Source: Rhodocyclaceae bacterium (lineage in GTDB: Bacteria > Pseudomonadota > Gammaproteobacteria > Burkholderiales > Rhodocyclaceae). From it: a stretch of 64,000 bases of DNA. Shown here piece after piece: positions 9,970-18,957 of this stretch. Location: NCBI GenBank assembly GCA_023383815.1, contig JAHDYG010000005.1:62001-126000 (forward strand), in the 5' to 3' direction. A model generated the notes under the pieces. The model had not been told where the DNA came from. It was given only the letters and a program-made list of their open reading frames with translations, and ran no database searches. Positions within the stretch are counted from its first letter, which is position 1; each line of letters begins with the position of its first letter. The position numbers and the translations under genes were made by a program.

Positions 9970-9984
9970 GTTACAGTCCGTAAC
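9970..9984. promoter_or_regulatory. GTTAC-N5-GTAAC operator upstream of the CbrX/CbrA-like genes
   Basis: GTTACAGTCCGTAAC, extended to TGTTAC-N5-GTAACA. Confidence 0.6.
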
Positions 9985-10014: not shown

Positions 10015-10176
10015 ATGGACAAGATCGTGATCCTGTTCCTGTTTGGCATCCTGCTTTTCGCTTCGCCTCTGGTCTACTGGTGGGCATCGCCAGCCTTCCC
10101 ATGGTATGCACCCTACCTGCTGTGGGCGATCCTGATCGGACTCATCGTGCTCGTGCAAAGACACCATGAGCACTGA
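10015..10176 (+). CDS. Small membrane protein overlapping the sensor kinase start (CbrX-like position)
   Basis: MDKIVILFLFGILLFASPLVYWWASPAFPWYAPYLLWAILIGLIVLVQRHHEH; two hydrophobic segments; 11-nt overlap with the next gene. Confidence 0.75.
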   Translation: MDKIVILFLFGILLFASPLVYWWASPAFPWYAPYLLWAILIGLIVLVQRHHEH

Positions 10177-13129
10177 GATCGGCATCCTGTATGCAGTCGG
10201 CGTGGCCTATCTGGGGCTGCTGTTCTTCATCGCCCATGCAACCGAAAACCGCTGGCTGCCCGACCGGCTGGTACGCCACCCGCTGGTCTATGCGCTCGGA
10301 CTCGGCGTCTATGCGACTTCGTGGAGCTTTTTTGGCAGTGTCGGCTTTGCGCAGACGCAGGGCTACAATTTTCTCACGATCTATCTCGGCGTCACGCTCG
10401 CCTTCATCCTGACACCGCTGCTGCTCGCTCCGCTGCTGCGACTGGTGCGGGACCACCAGCTCACCTCGCTCGCCGACCTCTTCGCGTTCCGTTACCCAAG
10501 CCCATGGACCGGCGCTCTGGTGACGCTCTTCATGCTCTGTGGCGTCTTGCCCTATATCGCGCTGCAGATCAAAGCCGTGACGGAGGCGGTGACCGTGATC
10601 ACTCAGGAGGCGCCGCCACACCTCCTGGCGCTCGCTTTCTGCGGCACACTGGGCCTGTTCGCAATCCTCTTCGGCGCACGCCACATCACCCCGCACGAGA
10701 AGCACGAGGGCCTGGTGGTCGCGATCGCCTTCGAATCGGCGATCAAGCTGCTGGCCCTGATCACCGTCGGCATATTCGCGCTGTTCGGGGTGTTCGGCGG
10801 ACTCGACGGCCTCGATCAATGGCTCGCCCGGCATCCCGAAGCGATCACTGCCCTTTATGCCCCGGTTCGCGACGGGCCGTGGTTCACCTTCATCGTCCTC
10901 GCCTTCGCGGCCGGCTTCCTGCTGCCGCGCCAGTTCCACATGCTGTTCGTCGAGAACATGGACGCGCGCGCGCTGAAGACCGCAGCCTGGGCGTTCCCGC
11001 TCTTCCTGTTGCTGCTCAATGTGCCGATTCCACTGATCCTGTGGGCGGGCTCTGCCGCCGCAGTGAGCACCGCACCCGATTATTTCGTCCTCGGACTGGC
11101 GGTCGAACGGGGGAGCAAGTGGCTCACGCTGATGACCTTCGTCGGCGGGGTGTCGGCGGCCAGCGCGATGATGATCGTGACGACGCTTGCACTGGCGAGC
11201 ATGTGCCTCAATCACCTGATCCTGCCGGCACGCTACCAGCAGCATTCCTTCCCGCGCGAGAACCTCTACGCCTGGCTCCTGTGGGGACGGCGGATGCTGA
11301 TTCTCGTCATCATCGGGCTCGGCTACGGGTTTTACCTGCTGCTGCAGGTCCACCAGGGCCTGGTCCAGATCGGCCTGATCTCGTTCGTGGCCGTTGCCCA
11401 GTTCCTTCCAGGCGTCGCCGGCATCCTGGCCTGGCCGCGCGCAACGCGGATCGGGTTTGTTTCCGGGCTGGCCGGCGGCATCGCCGTCTGGATCTTCGCC
11501 CTCATCCTGCCCTTGCTGCATCGGTCGGGATTGCCCGTCACCGACTTCAGCCTCCAGCAATGGGCCGGCGCCGGCGAGCAGGATCGATGGGCCTTCGCGA
11601 CCTTCTGGTCGCTCACGGTGAACGGGCTCCTGTTCGTCGCCGGATCGTTGCTGAGCCGCCCGACCCCGGCCGAGGCCCAGGCGAACCTGGCGATCGCGCG
11701 CCGCGACGCGGTCGACATTCCGCCGCGCATGCTCGAGGCACGGTCGGTGGAGGAGTTCATGGAGCGCCTGTCCCAGGCTGTCGGCCCGCAAACGGCAGCG
11801 CTCGAGCTCGGCCGGGCCCTCGACGACCTCGACATGCGGCACGACGAGACACGCCCGGCCGACCTGGGCCGCCTGCGCGAGCGCCTGGAGCGCAACCTGT
11901 CCGGCCTCATCGGCCCGCTGCTTTCGCGCATGATCGTCGACAACCGGCTTCAGGTCGCCCCGCACGCCCGCCTCGCACTGGCCGACAGCCTGCGCTTCGT
12001 CGAAGCGCAGCTCGAACGCTCGCACGGCCGCCTCGAAGGGCTCGCCGCCGAACTCGACACCTTGCGTCGCTATCACCGCAAGGTGCTGCATGAACTGCCG
12101 CTCGGAGTGTGTTCGCTGTCACCCGACGCCGTCGTGCTGTTCTGGAACAGTGCAATGGCCGGCATTTCGGGAATGCCCAGCCATGAAGCGGTGGGCCGCA
12201 GCCTGAACGAGCTCGCCCCCCCCTGGAAGGGGATTCTGCGCGCCTTCGTCGACGGCGACGAACGTCATCTGTACAAGCTCCAGTGCCTCGTCAAGGGCCG
12301 CAACCGATGGATCAACCTGCACAAGGCAACCATCGAGAACAGCACCGGAGATTCCCCGCCGGCTTCGGCTGAAGCCGCCGGCACCGTCATTCTGGTCGAG
12401 GACCTGACCGAACTGCACATGCTCGAAAGCGAGGTTGCTCATAACGATCGTCTGGCCTCGATCGGCCGGCTCGCGGCAGGCGTCGCGCACGAGATCGGCA
12501 ATCCGCTGACGGGCATCGCCTCGCTGGCCCAGAACCTTCACTTCGAGACCGACCCGAAGGAGCAGGAACTGGCGATCGCACAGATCCTGAAGCAGACCAA
12601 ACGCATCAGCAACATCGTCCAGTCGCTGATCACCTTCAGCCACGCCGGCGAGACCCAGCAAGCCCGGCGCGAGGCGGTTGCGCTGCACGAATGCGTGCAC
12701 GAGGCGATCCACCTCGTCCGGCTGGCCGACTCCGCGCGCCAGGTCCTGTGCGTCAATGCCGTGCCCGAGCATCTCATGGTCAGCGGCAACGCCCAGCGCC
12801 TGCTGCAGGTCTTCGTGAATCTCCTGAGCAACGCGACCCAGGCCTCGGAGGCCGGCAGCCGCGTCATCGTGCACGGGCGCGGCGACGACACGCTCATCGA
12901 GATCGTGGTCGAGGACGAGGGCAGTGGAATCGCCGAATCGAACCTCGACCGCATCTTCGAGCCATTTTTCACGACCAAGCCGGCCGGTGAGGGCACCGGG
13001 CTCGGGCTGTCGGTCGTCTACAGCATCATCGAGGATCACGGCGGGGTGGTCCAGGCCGAGAACCGGGAGCCACGCGGCACCCGCTTCACGATCCGGCTGC
13101 CCGCCCTTCAGGAGGAAAGCACTGCATGA
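10166..13129 (+). CDS. Histidine kinase with N-terminal SLC5/SSS transporter domain, CbrA-like
   Basis: 13-TM-like SSS region followed by PAS and HATPase: RLAAGVAHEIGNPLTGIASLAQNL, NLLSNATQASE, GEGTGLGLSVVYSI. Confidence 0.9.
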   Translation: MSTEIGILYAVGVAYLGLLFFIAHATENRWLPDRLVRHPLVYALGLGVYATSWSFFGSVGFAQTQGYNFLTIYLGVTLAFILTPLLLAPLLRLVRDHQLTSLADLFAFRYPSPWTGALVTLFMLCGVLPYIALQIKAVTEAVTVITQEAPPHLLALAFCGTLGLFAILFGARHITPHEKHEGLVVAIAFESAIKLLALITVGIFALFGVFGGLDGLDQWLARHPEAITALYAPVRDGPWFTFIVLAFAAGFLLPRQFHMLFVENMDARALKTAAWAFPLFLLLLNVPIPLILWAGSAAAVSTAPDYFVLGLAVERGSKWLTLMTFVGGVSAASAMMIVTTLALASMCLNHLILPARYQQHSFPRENLYAWLLWGRRMLILVIIGLGYGFYLLLQVHQGLVQIGLISFVAVAQFLPGVAGILAWPRATRIGFVSGLAGGIAVWIFALILPLLHRSGLPVTDFSLQQWAGAGEQDRWAFATFWSLTVNGLLFVAGSLLSRPTPAEAQANLAIARRDAVDIPPRMLEARSVEEFMERLSQAVGPQTAALELGRALDDLDMRHDETRPADLGRLRERLERNLSGLIGPLLSRMIVDNRLQVAPHARLALADSLRFVEAQLERSHGRLEGLAAELDTLRRYHRKVLHELPLGVCSLSPDAVVLFWNSAMAGISGMPSHEAVGRSLNELAPPWKGILRAFVDGDERHLYKLQCLVKGRNRWINLHKATIENSTGDSPPASAEAAGTVILVEDLTELHMLESEVAHNDRLASIGRLAAGVAHEIGNPLTGIASLAQNLHFETDPKEQELAIAQILKQTKRISNIVQSLITFSHAGETQQARREAVALHECVHEAIHLVRLADSARQVLCVNAVPEHLMVSGNAQRLLQVFVNLLSNATQASEAGSRVIVHGRGDDTLIEIVVEDEGSGIAESNLDRIFEPFFTTKPAGEGTGLGLSVVYSIIEDHGGVVQAENREPRGTRFTIRLPALQEESTA

Positions 13130-14472
13130 ACCGCATACTCATCGTCGACGACGAGGACGTCATCCGGCGTGCCCTGCGTCGCCTGCTCGAGCGCGAAGGC
13201 TACCGCGTGGCCGAAGCCACGAGCCTCGCCGAGGCACGCCAGTCGTGCGCCAGCCAGCAGTCGGATCTGGCAATCTGCGACCTGCGCCTGCCCGATGGCG
13301 AAGGCATCCAGCTCGCCGCGGCATGCCCGGATACGCCGGTGCTGATCATGACGAGCTTCGCGAGCGTCAATTCCGCGGTCGAGGCAATGAAGGCCGGTGC
13401 GGTCGACTACATCGCCAAGCCCTTCGACCACGAGGAGATGCTGCTGACGATTGCGCGCATCCTCAAGCAGCGCCGGCTCGAACGCGAGAACCAGCACCTG
13501 AGGAGGGATCTCGCACGCGTGTATCCGATCGACGGCATGGTCGGACGCTCGGCCGGAATGAACCAGGTGTGCGAAACGGTCAAGAAGGTCGCCCCGACGG
13601 ACACGACCGTCCTGATCCGGGGCGAGTCGGGCACCGGCAAGGAGCTCGTCGCACGCGCGATTCACGCCAAGAGCCCGCGTGCCGGCGTTCCGCTGGTCAC
13701 CGTCAATTGTGCGAGCATTCCGGAAGGACTGATCGAATCGGAACTGTTCGGCCATGAGAAGGGCGCGTTCACCGGCGCCACGACCGGGCACCGGGGGCTG
13801 GTCGAAGCCGCCGACGGCGGAACGCTCTTTCTCGATGAAATCGGCGAGCTCACGCCCGCCGCACAGTCCCGCCTGCTGCGTGTGCTCCAGGATGGCGAAA
13901 TCCGGCGGGTCGGCGCGACGACGAGCCGCACGGTCGACGTGCGCCTCGTCGCCGCCACCCACCGCGACCTCGAACAGATGGTGCGCGACGGCGACTTCCG
14001 TGAGGATCTCTACTACCGGCTGGAAGTCATGGAGATTCATCTGCCGCCGCTGCGCGAGCGCGGCGAGGACATCCCGCTACTCGCCGAGCATCTGCTCGAC
14101 GAAGCCTGCACCCGCATGAAACGTCCACGCCTGGCCTTCTCCGCAGCGGCAACGCAGGCCCTGCTGCGCCACCGCTGGCCCGGCAACGTGCGGGAACTGA
14201 AGAACGCGATCGAGCGCGCGGTGATCCTGGCCGACGAGTGCATCACCCCGGAACTGCTGGCGCTGCATACGCCGCGCGAAGCCGCACCGGAGCGACGCGG
14301 GATGAGCATGGACGACTACTTCCGCCGCTTCGTGATCGAGCACCAGGACACGCTCACCGAAACCGAGATTGCGCGCCGCCTCGGCATCAGCCGCAAGGCA
14401 TTGTGGGAGCGGCGTTCGCGCATGGGGCTGCCGCGACCGCGCGCCCAGGGTGCACGCGCGCCCGTCGAGTAA
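13126..14472 (+). CDS. Sigma54-dependent response regulator, NtrC/CbrB-like
   Basis: REC domain, RGESGTGKELVARAIH, ELFGHEKGAFTGA, C-terminal Fis-type HTH (TETEIARRLGISRKALWERR). Confidence 0.93.
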   Translation: MNRILIVDDEDVIRRALRRLLEREGYRVAEATSLAEARQSCASQQSDLAICDLRLPDGEGIQLAAACPDTPVLIMTSFASVNSAVEAMKAGAVDYIAKPFDHEEMLLTIARILKQRRLERENQHLRRDLARVYPIDGMVGRSAGMNQVCETVKKVAPTDTTVLIRGESGTGKELVARAIHAKSPRAGVPLVTVNCASIPEGLIESELFGHEKGAFTGATTGHRGLVEAADGGTLFLDEIGELTPAAQSRLLRVLQDGEIRRVGATTSRTVDVRLVAATHRDLEQMVRDGDFREDLYYRLEVMEIHLPPLRERGEDIPLLAEHLLDEACTRMKRPRLAFSAAATQALLRHRWPGNVRELKNAIERAVILADECITPELLALHTPREAAPERRGMSMDDYFRRFVIEHQDTLTETEIARRLGISRKALWERRSRMGLPRPRAQGARAPVE

Positions 14473-14482
14473 CCCGGAAAGC

Positions 14483-14516
14483 GTTACCCACGGTAACAGG
14501 CGTTACCTTGGGTAAC
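14483..14516. promoter_or_regulatory. Tandem 15-bp palindromic activator sites (candidate UAS)
   Basis: GTTACC-CAC-GGTAAC (14483-14497) and GTTACC-TTG-GGTAAC (14502-14516), centres 19 bp apart. Confidence 0.75.
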
Positions 14517-14568: not shown

Positions 14569-14584
14569 TGGCACATCGCTTGCT
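14569..14584 (+). promoter_or_regulatory. Sigma54 (-24/-12) promoter for the DUF4212-symporter operon
   Basis: TGGCAC-ATCGC-TTGCT matches TGGCAC-N5-TTGCW exactly; 52 bp after the UAS pair, 54 bp before the start codon. Confidence 0.82.
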
Positions 14585-14638: not shown

Positions 14639-14905
14639 GTGACTCAACTGACACAAGAGCAGCGCGCGTTGCACTGGCAACGCACGCGAACCTTGATGAT
14701 CGTGCATCTGACGATCTGGTTCATCTTTTCATACGTCGTGCATTGGTTTGCCGTTGAACTGAACGCCATCAAGTTCTTCGGCTGGCCGCTCGGCTACTAC
14801 ATGTCCGCACAGGGCTCGCTGGTCGTGTTCGTGGTCCAGCTCTTCATGTTCAGCAAACAACAGCACGCCATCGACGTCGAGTTCGGCGTGGCTGAAGAAG
14901 AATAG
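14639..14905 (+). CDS. DUF4212 domain protein, sodium symporter small subunit
   Basis: GTG start after AAAGGAGGA; MTQLTQEQRALHWQRTRTLMIVHLTIWFIFSYVVHWFA. Confidence 0.88.
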   Translation: MTQLTQEQRALHWQRTRTLMIVHLTIWFIFSYVVHWFAVELNAIKFFGWPLGYYMSAQGSLVVFVVQLFMFSKQQHAIDVEFGVAEEE

Positions 14906-14917
14906 GGAGGACACGAC

Positions 14918-16759
14918 ATGGGCATGCAATGGGAAGGGAAATCCTTCATCGACAATCTGCCGAAGATCTATGGCGTGTACACCGGGGGCTTTCTCGCGTT
15001 CTTCGCGCTGATGGCGATCCTGGAACAGATGGGCGTGGGCGCCGACATGATCGGCATCCTGTTCGTGGGCTTCACGATCGTGATCTACGCCTTCATCGGT
15101 GTGCTGTCACGAACGATGGCGGTGGATGCCTACTACGTCGCGGGGCGCAGCGTACCACCCGTGTTCAACGGCATGGCAACGGCGGCCGACTGGATGTCCG
15201 GTGCCTCCTTCGTGGCGATGGCGGGCGGCATCTTCATGGCCGGCCACGGCTACATGGCCTTCATCGTCGGCTGGACGGGCGGCTACATCCTCGTGGCGAC
15301 CCTGATGGCGCCGTATCTGCGCAAGTTCGGCTGCTACACCGTGCCCGACTTCGTCGGCACGCGCTATGGCGGCAAGCTGGCGCGCTTCTGCGCAATCGTG
15401 GTACTGATCGTCGCTTCGTTCACGTACGTGACCGCGCAGATCACCGCGACCGGCACGATTGCCGCCCGCGCACTGCAGATTCCGTTCGAGGCCGGCGTCT
15501 GGTTCGGTCTCGCCGGCATCCTCGTCTGCTCGATGCTCGGCGGCATGCGCGCAGTGACCTGGACCCAGGTCGCGCAGTACATCGTGCTGATCGTCGCCTA
15601 CCTGATCCCGATCTTCTGGATGTCGATCGCGCAGGGCTTCGGGCCCTTCCCGCAGCTCGCCTACGGCGGCGCTGTCGAGCGCATCATGGAACTCGAACCG
15701 GTGATCGGCGTCGGCACGAAGGCCGTCGAGGCGGTTCCCGGCCTCGGAGTGCTGACCACCCTGCACGCCACGCCGAAGGAAGGCGCGATCGCCGCATGGC
15801 AGTTCGTGACGCTGGTCGCGTGCATGATGATCGGAACCGCCTCGCTGCCGCACATCCTGATGCGCTACTTCACGACGCCGTCGGTGCGGGATGCACGCAC
15901 GTCGGTCGCCTGGTCGCTGTTCTTCATCTTCCTGCTGTACTTCTCGGCCCCGGCGCTGGCGACGTTCAGCAAGCTGCAGATGATCGACCCGACGCTGCCG
16001 ACCGCGATCATCGGCAAGTCGATCGACGAGGTCATGGCGCTCAACTGGATCCAGAAATGGGGCGCGATCGGGCTGCTGGCCGTGAAGGACGGCAACGCAG
16101 ACGGCATCCTGCAGATCAACGAGTTCTTCCTCAACCCGGACATCATCGTACTCGCAACGCCTGAAATGGCCGGCCTGCCGTACGTGATCTCGGGCCTCGT
16201 CGCTGCCGGCGGCATGGCCGCCGCGATGTCCACGGCGGACGGACTGCTGCTCGCGATGGCCAACGCCCTGTCGCACGATCTGTACTACAAGATCATCGAC
16301 CCGAAGGCGGAAACCAAGAAGCGCCTGCTCACCGCCCGCATCCTGCTGGTCGTGATCGGTGCGGCCGGCGCGCTGGTGGCGAGCATGAAGCTCACCGGCA
16401 TTCTCGGTGCGGTGGCCTGGGCCTTCTGCTTTGCGATGTCCGGGCTTTTCTTCCCGCTCGTGCTCGGGGTGTGGTGGAAGCGCGCAAACCGCCCCGGTGC
16501 GATCGCCGGGATGGTCGGCGGGCTCGGCGTGGGCTGGTGGTATCTGCTGGCCGTGCGCAACCCGAAGGAGTGGTACGGTCTTGCCGAACCGTGGCTGGGC
16601 CTGAACGACCTGCGCTTCGGCATCGTCGGCATCGTCGCGAGCCTCGTGTGCATGGTCGTGGTAACCTTGCTCACGGCCGCGCCGGACGAGGAAACCCAGC
16701 GCATGGTGGACGAGGTCCGCATCCCGCGGGGTGACACGATCATCGGCGCAAAGGCCTGA
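14918..16759 (+). CDS. Sodium:solute symporter, ActP-like / VC_2705-type large subunit
   Basis: SSS family: DAYYVAGRSVPPVFNGMATAADWMSGASF; directly downstream of DUF4212. Confidence 0.9.
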   Translation: MGMQWEGKSFIDNLPKIYGVYTGGFLAFFALMAILEQMGVGADMIGILFVGFTIVIYAFIGVLSRTMAVDAYYVAGRSVPPVFNGMATAADWMSGASFVAMAGGIFMAGHGYMAFIVGWTGGYILVATLMAPYLRKFGCYTVPDFVGTRYGGKLARFCAIVVLIVASFTYVTAQITATGTIAARALQIPFEAGVWFGLAGILVCSMLGGMRAVTWTQVAQYIVLIVAYLIPIFWMSIAQGFGPFPQLAYGGAVERIMELEPVIGVGTKAVEAVPGLGVLTTLHATPKEGAIAAWQFVTLVACMMIGTASLPHILMRYFTTPSVRDARTSVAWSLFFIFLLYFSAPALATFSKLQMIDPTLPTAIIGKSIDEVMALNWIQKWGAIGLLAVKDGNADGILQINEFFLNPDIIVLATPEMAGLPYVISGLVAAGGMAAAMSTADGLLLAMANALSHDLYYKIIDPKAETKKRLLTARILLVVIGAAGALVASMKLTGILGAVAWAFCFAMSGLFFPLVLGVWWKRANRPGAIAGMVGGLGVGWWYLLAVRNPKEWYGLAEPWLGLNDLRFGIVGIVASLVCMVVVTLLTAAPDEETQRMVDEVRIPRGDTIIGAKA

Positions 16760-16854: not shown

Positions 16855-17214
16855 ATGATGATCGAAGGCATCCCCGGCTGGGCCATCGCGATCGACTACC
16901 TGCTGGGCATGATCATGTGGACCCTGATCGGTCGCTTCGGCATGCGGCTGTTCCTGCCCGAAGAAAGCAAGTTCTTCTTCAGCCGCATCTTCATCCGGCT
17001 GACCAATCCACTGCTGAAGCTGTTCGCACCGATCACGCCCGGATTCCTCGTACCGGCGCTGATCCCGCTGTACGTGGCGTGGTTCTTCTACATGGTCCGC
17101 TTCTACCTGATGCCCTGGGCTCTGGGCTACTCGGTCATGGGCATGCTGTCCTTTCCGCTCGAAGGCGAGATCGCCCGCGGCATCTATCACCTGGGAAAGA
17201 TGATCGTCAATTGA
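16855..17214 (+). CDS. Conserved membrane protein of unknown function
   Basis: 119 aa, several hydrophobic segments; downstream of the symporter. Confidence 0.75.
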   Translation: MMIEGIPGWAIAIDYLLGMIMWTLIGRFGMRLFLPEESKFFFSRIFIRLTNPLLKLFAPITPGFLVPALIPLYVAWFFYMVRFYLMPWALGYSVMGMLSFPLEGEIARGIYHLGKMIVN

Positions 17215-17926
17215 GCGGCTGCAGGAGCGCCTGCACATCGAGACAGGCGCGCAGGTCCCGCCGCACCTCCTGCCAGCGAAAGCGCACCGAGTTGAGCACG
17301 ATCTCTTCGTCCAGTTCCTTGAGCTGGTCGAGCACCGGCGACCACCGGACCACCGAAGCTGGACTGTCTGTGAACGCCCATTCACCGTCCTCGAACCGGG
17401 CGAGATCGACGGCCGCGACCCGTTCGCGCAGACGCTGTGCGTGCTCGGGCCAGGCACCTCCTGCATCTTGGGGCGTGCCGGTGCGGGCGAGGATCTCGCC
17501 CACCAGCCCTTCGATCAAGGAGCGCACCGCTTCATGGCTGCCACCACCCTTGCAGAGCAGGCCTCCGGCGTGAATGGATAGATCACCCAGACAATCGAGC
17601 CAGATGTGCCACTTCGCGACGTTGATCCCCTCGACGAACGGATCGTCGTCAAACAGCTCGGGATAGCGCATGCCGGCGCGCGTGCGCAGGTAGCCATAGA
17701 GCGAGGTCTGGGCCACGAAACTCGCCCGCGTATCGAGAAAACCCGAAAGCCCGGCCAGGCTCGTGATTGGCTCCAGGCGCTTGCGTCCGCGCCCGATTCC
17801 GAAGTAGTCGGAAATCATCCTCAGCCAGTCGCCTGGCCGCAGCGACAGCCCCAATCCGGCCCCCCCGCCTTTCGTTGCGGTGCGCCGGACGACTCTGGGT
17901 TTGAAAAACTCCTGCGGTTCGGTCAC
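17207..17926 (-). CDS. Conserved hypothetical protein
   Basis: Full-length ORF (MTEPQEFFKPRVVRRTATKGG...), convergent with the preceding gene; no family recognised. Confidence 0.65.
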   Translation of the reverse strand: MTEPQEFFKPRVVRRTATKGGGAGLGLSLRPGDWLRMISDYFGIGRGRKRLEPITSLAGLSGFLDTRASFVAQTSLYGYLRTRAGMRYPELFDDDPFVEGINVAKWHIWLDCLGDLSIHAGGLLCKGGGSHEAVRSLIEGLVGEILARTGTPQDAGGAWPEHAQRLRERVAAVDLARFEDGEWAFTDSPASVVRWSPVLDQLKELDEEIVLNSVRFRWQEVRRDLRACLDVQALLQPLN

Positions 17927-18109: not shown

Positions 18110-18143
18110 GTTACGGTTCGTAGCGCTCGCTACGCCGGGTAAC
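18110..18143. promoter_or_regulatory. Second tandem UAS pair of the same motif
   Basis: GTTAC-GGTTC-GTAGC (18110-18124) and GCTAC-GCCGG-GTAAC (18129-18143), centres 19 bp apart, as in the 14483-14516 pair. Confidence 0.7.
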
Positions 18144-18206
18144 AACCGCGCGCCCATCCCTGCGCGCGCACGGGCGCAATCCACCGTACCCACGAGCAAT
18201 CGCGCT

Positions 18207-18222
18207 CGGCACAGCGATTGCT
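18207..18222 (+). promoter_or_regulatory. Sigma54 (-24/-12) promoter
   Basis: CGGCAC-AGCGA-TTGCT (GG at -24, GC at -12, correct spacing), 63 bp after the UAS pair and 33 bp before the ORF. Confidence 0.7.
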
Positions 18223-18255
18223 TGGCGTGGACGTCCGTGACCACCCGCCACGATC

Positions 18256-18714
18256 ATGAGGCAGACGACCCCGAGTGCCCGACCGTCAGTGCGCCCGACG
18301 CGCCTGCTCGCAGCGACGATCGAATTCCTGCGCCGCAACCACCCGTTTTCAGACATGGAATCCGGACACCTGGAGTTTCTCGCCAAACGCCTCCACACGC
18401 GCTACTGCCCCGCCGGATCGAGGATCGAATGCGGAGATGAAATCGGAGGTGCGTGCCTGCTCATCGTCAAACAGGGCATCGTCGAAATCATCCGGGCCAC
18501 ACGACGGTCTTCGCGGCTGCTTCGCCCCGGCGACAGCTTCGTCATTCCGCCTTCCGGATTGCGCAACTCGGAAGGCGACGGGGTGGAGCATGTGGCGGGA
18601 GAGGATACCTTCTGCCTCGAAGTGGACCACGACGCACTGGCAGAACTGGCCAGGAAATCGGACGCGCTCAGGGATTTTCTCACTGCAGCCCAGGTACGCC
18701 ACCCCGAGGGCTGA
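18256..18714 (+). CDS. Stand-alone cyclic-nucleotide-binding domain protein
   Basis: HPFSDMESGHLEFLAKRLHTRYCPAGSRIECGDEIGGACLLIVKQGIVEI...LLRPGDSF. Confidence 0.75.
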   Translation: MRQTTPSARPSVRPTRLLAATIEFLRRNHPFSDMESGHLEFLAKRLHTRYCPAGSRIECGDEIGGACLLIVKQGIVEIIRATRRSSRLLRPGDSFVIPPSGLRNSEGDGVEHVAGEDTFCLEVDHDALAELARKSDALRDFLTAAQVRHPEG

Positions 18715-18719
18715 ATGCA

Positions 18720-18753
18720 GACGGGGTGCGGAACCCAGGTTCCGCACCCCGTC
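18720..18753. terminator. Perfect 16-bp stem hairpin between convergent CNB gene and 6S RNA
   Basis: GACGGGGTGCGGAACC-CA-GGTTCCGCACCCCGTC; no clear T-tract. Confidence 0.55.
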
Positions 18754-18760
18754 ATTCTGG

Positions 18761-18938
18761 CCCCCCGCCTGTGCCGTTTCCACCGGGCATCCTGAACCTG
18801 TGGTTCAGGGTGGTCGCTTTCCTGCCGCTTCAGGCTCACCCGTCAAGGGGCGTGCACACCAGCGGGTCGATGGTCCGCAACCGTGTCTCTCGACATTGGT
18901 CCAAGGAATCTACGATTTCAACGAACACGGCAGGGGAT
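18761..18938 (-). ncRNA. ssrS: 6S RNA
   Basis: Downstream of zapA on the same strand; closing stem CCCCTGCCGTGTTCG...GAAACGGCACAGGCGGGG and internal CCTGAACCACAGGTTCAGG resembling E. coli CTTGAACCAAGGGTTCAAGG. Confidence 0.8.
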
Positions 18939-18957
18939 TGACCGCTTCGCCTACACG

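Follow-up and report, generated by a model that had tools for sequence, protein, structure and literature searches.

Genes and features of the locus

The window, i.e. the whole analyzed stretch of 64,000 nucleotides from a Rhodocyclaceae bacterium, carries a regulatory gene cluster followed by a symporter operon, both on the forward strand. The following features were annotated:

9970–9984 (+), single conserved dyad GTTACAGTCCGTAAC before the kinase operon
10015–10176 (+), CbrX-like membrane peptide of 53 aa, its ORF overlapping the start of the kinase gene (match to PDB 10ED chain X, E 4.9e-9)
10166–13129 (+), CbrA-like SLC5-STAC-PAS-histidine kinase
13126–14472 (+), CbrB-like NtrC-family response regulator with sigma54-interaction domain
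14483–14516 (+), paired dyad operator UAS1 of the symporter operon
14569–14584 (+), sigma54 −24/−12 element TGGCACATCGCTTGCT of the symporter operon
14642–14905 (+), DUF4212 symporter small subunit (TIGR03647)
14918–16759 (+), VC_2705-family sodium/solute symporter large subunit (TIGR03648)

The dyad at 9970–9984 has the form GTTAC-N5-GTAAC and is located ~30 bp before the CbrX-like ORF. Since such a single dyad is also kept before the CbrX-kinase operon in most regulator-carrying genomes, its position suggests autoregulation. A divergent 239-aa gene at 17207–17926 (−) had no Pfam or NCBIfam match; it adjoins a YGGT-like gene and the symporter in Azoarcus-type and Thioalkalivibrio loci, too, and this neighborhood is thus conserved. 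Further downstream, a second operator precedes a lone gene with a cyclic-nucleotide-binding (CNB) domain:

18110–18143 (+), paired dyad operator UAS2, GTTAC-N5-GTAGC-N4-GCTAC-N5-GTAAC (pattern match and conservation in a second genus)
18207–18222 (+), putative sigma54 −24/−12 element CGGCACAGCGATTGCT (1 mismatch to TGGCAC-N5-TTGCW; same-position element in L062 and L063 of the second genus)
18256–18714 (+), lone CNB-domain ORF, 152 aa, phosphate-binding cassette degraded (homology to the N-terminal domain of CNB-CBS-DUF294 proteins)
18720–18753 (+), very stable hairpin directly behind the stop codon (−43.6 kcal/mol, z −6.35)

The hairpin lacks a U-run here, while U-runs are present in relatives, and it is a possible terminator; a scan for classical terminators after the lone ORF found none. 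A 6S RNA gene (ssrS, RF00013, 61.8 bits) is located at 18758–18939 (−), with the lone CNB gene, to which it is convergent, on one side and zapA on the other.

Paired operators and putative sigma54 promoters

UAS2 is composed of the dyads GTTACGGTTCGTAGC (18110–18124) and GCTACGCCGGGTAAC (18129–18143), both of the form GYTAC-N5-GTARC, with their centers at 18117 and 18136 and thus 19 bp apart. The element CGGCACAGCGATTGCT reads CGGCAC-N5-TTGCT and contains the GG-N10-GC signature of −24/−12 elements. From the last base of the operator to the −24 element, the lone ORF has a distance of 63 bp and the symporter operon one of 52 bp (14483–14516 to 14569). An earlier note on this DNA, made from the letters alone, had already described both dyads with their spacing, the element behind them and these two gaps, and it was exact to the base. 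Transcription of the lone ORF is predicted to start near 18233.

In the 64-kb window, 5 single dyads were observed (0.01 expected). The paired 34-mer has exactly 2 copies in the 3.8-Mb genome, one before the lone ORF and one before the symporter operon, and no further copies were detected there up to 3 mismatches; a control with the reversed pattern gave 0 matches in the genome at 0 mismatches and 5 at 3. Elements of the sigma54 consensus at ≤1 mismatch occurred 6 times in the 64 kb on both strands, which corresponds to a chance of ~0.5% to find one ≤100 bp downstream on the right strand. The genome also contains an rpoN gene. Two other assignments were rejected: a promoter scan found no sigma70 promoter for the lone ORF, and UAS2 was not assigned to the divergent gene 17207–17926, as there is no minus-strand sigma54 element at ≤2 mismatches between the two.

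Both UAS2 and the −24/−12 element are kept in two species of the second genus (L062 and L063), where the element GGGCACAAGGCTTGCA is found at the position equivalent to CGGCACAGCGATTGCT and the inner half-sites GTAGC/GCTAC are retained. The UAS2 34-mer is identical in these two species, while the spacer diverges. Conservation of operator and promoter was thereby established by comparison.

Among 21 homologous promoters, the gap is 51–54 bp in 19, and the other two have 63 bp (the lone ORF) and 62 bp (L093); looser promoter cases showed gaps of 61, 64 and 75 bp. Direct relatives of the lone-ORF promoter have 53 bp versus 63 bp here. Helical phasing of operator to promoter, as proposed in the earlier note, is plausible and moderately supported by these sequences: the exceptions do lie close to multiples of a helical turn (P ~0.01–0.05; for six exceptions, Rayleigh 0.045 with a period of 10.5 bp and simulation P ~0.013), but the sample is small and non-independent and periods of 11–13 bp fit equally with 10.5. 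The spacing to −24 (51–54 bp, or one turn more) is conserved into Ectothiorhodospira and Thioalkalivibrio. Four Ectothiorhodospira promoters (L048, L052, L057, L058) have in common a second palindrome-like block TTGTTTCC..AGGGAACA between the UAS and −24, just upstream of the latter, which is possibly another operator.

Within the family, the paired operator was found in only 3 of 200 genomes, and the same three alone carry close relatives of the regulator 13126–14472 and the CbrXAB-like cluster (10015–14472 in the window; genomes G000, G035 and G116). A genome of the same genus as the window (G001) has neither paired operator nor regulator. This patchy distribution suggests that the cluster was acquired horizontally from gammaproteobacteria or lost repeatedly. 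L062 and L063 of the second genus likewise have both operators, at a distance of 3.5 kb, one preceding the symporter and the other a short CNB-type gene. A scan with one genome per species, complemented by additional loci from relatives of the regulator in a class-wide sample, showed that Ectothiorhodospira, Thioalkalivibrio and gammaproteobacteria related to them have the paired operator beside these genes, too. In the two named genera and others, it precedes CNB-CBS-DUF294 genes, mostly with DUF4212-SSS genes downstream. Matches of the scan in Actinomadura, Planctomycetota, Bacteroidetes and others were without relevant genes and were taken as chance or unrelated. Elsewhere in the genome, full-length homologues of the DUF294 type (L113, L114) had no nearby dyads at ≤1 mismatch. 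Operator and regulator were found together in 3 of 3 genomes of the family, and distant lineages have kept the arrangement; this comparison supports the small local regulon suggested earlier, one regulator with two sigma54 promoters.

The lone CNB-domain reading frame

The gene at 18256–18714 is indeed a lone gene, as had been noted before, and its product aligns with the N-terminus of CNB-CBS-DUF294-DUF294_C proteins of ~640 aa. The ORF ends after the CNB domain; the CBS and DUF294/DUF294_C domains, present in the full protein of the tested relative, are missing. Because only the N-terminus aligns and full CNB-CBS-DUF294 genes sit directly 3′ of the same operator in gammaproteobacteria, we read the gene as a truncated form, in which promoter and CNB domain survive in the window lineage and the CBS and nucleotidyltransferase domains are gone. 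Thus, the ORF shares with the large proteins a homologous N-terminal CNB domain and, for those of Ectothiorhodospira and Thioalkalivibrio, the upstream operator, and it differs from them by lacking the CBS and nucleotidyltransferase domains and by the loss of its cassette. Comparison with these proteins and with the two relatives of the second genus established homology, truncation and cassette loss as well as purifying selection between the two relatives.

The ORF is intact in three species of two genera. Between L062 and L063, dN/dS is ~0.21 (dS 0.83, dN 0.17), which indicates purifying selection between these two, and because of this selection the lone protein is probably a functional adaptor that does not bind nucleotides. 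Between genera, the protein is only 34% identical (neighbors 59–85%), which leaves selection in the window's own lineage unsupported; the ORF may be decaying there. The low identity, the indels in the cassette region and the 63-bp spacing unlike that of the relatives would also fit a DUF294 gene that was truncated and left a pseudogene in the window lineage, with a promoter not yet decayed. We consider this unlikely, as it is opposed by the intact ORF in all three species, by the dN/dS value and by a UAS 34-mer that stayed identical next to a diverging spacer.

The earlier note had taken the product for a cyclic-nucleotide-binding protein and a putative second-messenger sensor, and the overall fold agrees with this. 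The structure model has a CNB-like beta-roll fold (pLDDT 80) with a low-confidence patch at residues 104–107 in the cassette region, and the best Foldseek matches are cGMP/cAMP-binding domains (E 4e-8 to PKG CNB-B, TM ~0.6–0.7). CNB pockets are also able to change their ligand. Still, a genuine sensor of a cyclic nucleotide or another small molecule, coupling the sensing of substrate to a second messenger, is improbable. The cassette PGECFPIGALL..RPVRT of relatives is changed to PGDSFVIPPSGLRNSEGDGVE in the window protein, whereby the key Glu is replaced by Asp and Arg-Thr is lost, and ~14 cassette residues are deleted in L062 and L063. The Pfam CNB score of the ORF (PF00027) is 18.9 bits versus a gathering cut-off of 27.5, and a PF00027 search of the short proteins of L062 and L063 gave no match. 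With the cassette degraded or deleted and the score below the cut-off, nucleotide binding by the lone protein appears unlikely from sequence and model, and the sensor assignment is not supported, also because the ORF represents only part of a larger protein of the DUF294 type and not an independent sensor.

Very improbable, finally, is a regulatory RNA as the useful product with the ORF being incidental, as crcZ is for Pseudomonas CbrB: among the targets of CbrB, the sRNAs crcZ and crcY are known best (PMC6296734), the start codon of the ORF has no clear Shine-Dalgarno sequence and the 3′ hairpin is stable, but substitutions in the reading frame are synonymous-biased, the ORF is homologous to a protein domain, the same promoter drives a 640-aa protein in relatives, and an Rfam search of the ORF strand gave no match at gathering score.

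Kinship with CbrXAB and implications

The kinase is 46.5% identical over 587 aa to chain A (CbrA) of PDB 10ED (E 5.8e-161), the structure of the CbrXA SLC5-STAC complex (PMC13022988), and its gene overlaps the CbrX-like ORF by 11 bp. Of the SLC5 histidine-ligand residues, Y51, W55, Y75, K196 and F406 are kept and S53, A56, C74, F248, S251 and H257 are changed in the kinase, so that the pocket is conserved only in part. The regulator shares 55.6% identity with its counterpart in a Pseudomonas-like genome (G385), which is encoded behind a CbrA gene of 82% identity, and the recognition helix SRKALWERR is near-identical in both regulators. Downstream of the G385 regulator, TGTTAC...GTAACA...GTAAC sites are followed by a sigma54 element, which matches the published crcZ layout with the CbrB subsites TGTTAC/GTAACA (PMC6296734). 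The first inverted pair there is GTTAC-N15-GTAAC, with 15 bp versus 5 bp in the window dyads, i.e. exactly 10 bp wider. A search with the CrcZ model gave no match, but neither did the positive controls. Based on gene order, CbrX and pairwise identity, we assign the regulator to a CbrXAB-type system.

In common with Pseudomonas CbrXAB, the window has a CbrX peptide overlapping an SLC5-STAC-PAS kinase, an NtrC-family regulator, TGTTAC/GTAACA half-sites and sigma54 targets. Unlike it, the window system is found in the family that holds Azoarcus, has tight N5 palindromes in tandem pairs instead of separated non-palindromic F1/R1/R2 subsites, and has local targets instead of a global regulon. In published work, CbrAB has been called exclusive to Pseudomonadaceae, and Pseudomonas CbrB sites have been described as non-palindromic and monomer-bound.

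A similar combination of targets is known from the CrbS/CrbR (MxtR/ErdR) acetate system, in which an SLC5-STAC kinase controls a symporter gene and a gene for a CNB-CBS-nucleotidyltransferase protein. The full-length protein, PFLU5625/PP_0354 of Pseudomonas, is a CrbS/R target and shares its regulation with acetate genes; deleting it did not affect growth (PMC5715377, PMC9927547). That system differs by the LuxR-type CrbR and an ACTU motif next to an RpoD promoter, whereas in the window the activator is of the sigma54 type and the CNB gene is truncated. RpuS/RpuR of Sinorhizobium fredii is also an SLC5-STAC two-component system regulating a carboxylate symporter (MctP). To our knowledge, it has no CNB-type target. 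Its required operator, unlike those of the window, is an imperfect direct repeat (PMC9100948). The best reading is that the joint production of a CNB module and a carboxylate-type symporter is an ancient pattern and that here a CbrB-type sigma54 activator would control the module.

We consider it likely that the CbrXAB-type system drives two sigma54 promoters and that the lone gene is the 5′ remnant of a CNB-CBS-DUF294 gene, with its pocket decayed. The NtrC-family regulator would bind the tandem TGTTAC/GTAACA palindromes, located upstream of −24 at ~52 bp or one turn further away, and would thereby activate the promoters of the DUF4212/VC_2705 symporter and of the lone CNB-fold protein, whose gene would have retained its own promoter. 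Made together with the symporter, this protein would serve as a small adaptor or regulatory domain and not as a cAMP sensor. Here, we infer regulator binding, sigma54 dependence and protein function from the sequence features described above.

More tentatively, a CbrB-family activator outside Pseudomonadaceae may use ordinary tandem palindromes and, at the same time, a pocket-less CNB domain may be a small subunit of a new kind that regulates the symporter system with which it is co-induced, a combination that we regard as doubtful. If true, the non-palindromic CbrB subsites of Pseudomonas would be a derived form, stretched by one turn. Here, a CbrXAB-type system with a conserved operator code lies outside Pseudomonadaceae, the family regarded as the exclusive owner of CbrAB. 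The fixed geometry of operator and putative sigma54 promoter would offer a comparative system for DNA recognition by CbrB and for the influence of spacing on activation. Also, the uncharacterized CNB-CBS-DUF294 proteins, which occur repeatedly beside carboxylate symporters, would thereby be tied to one regulator across distant lineages.
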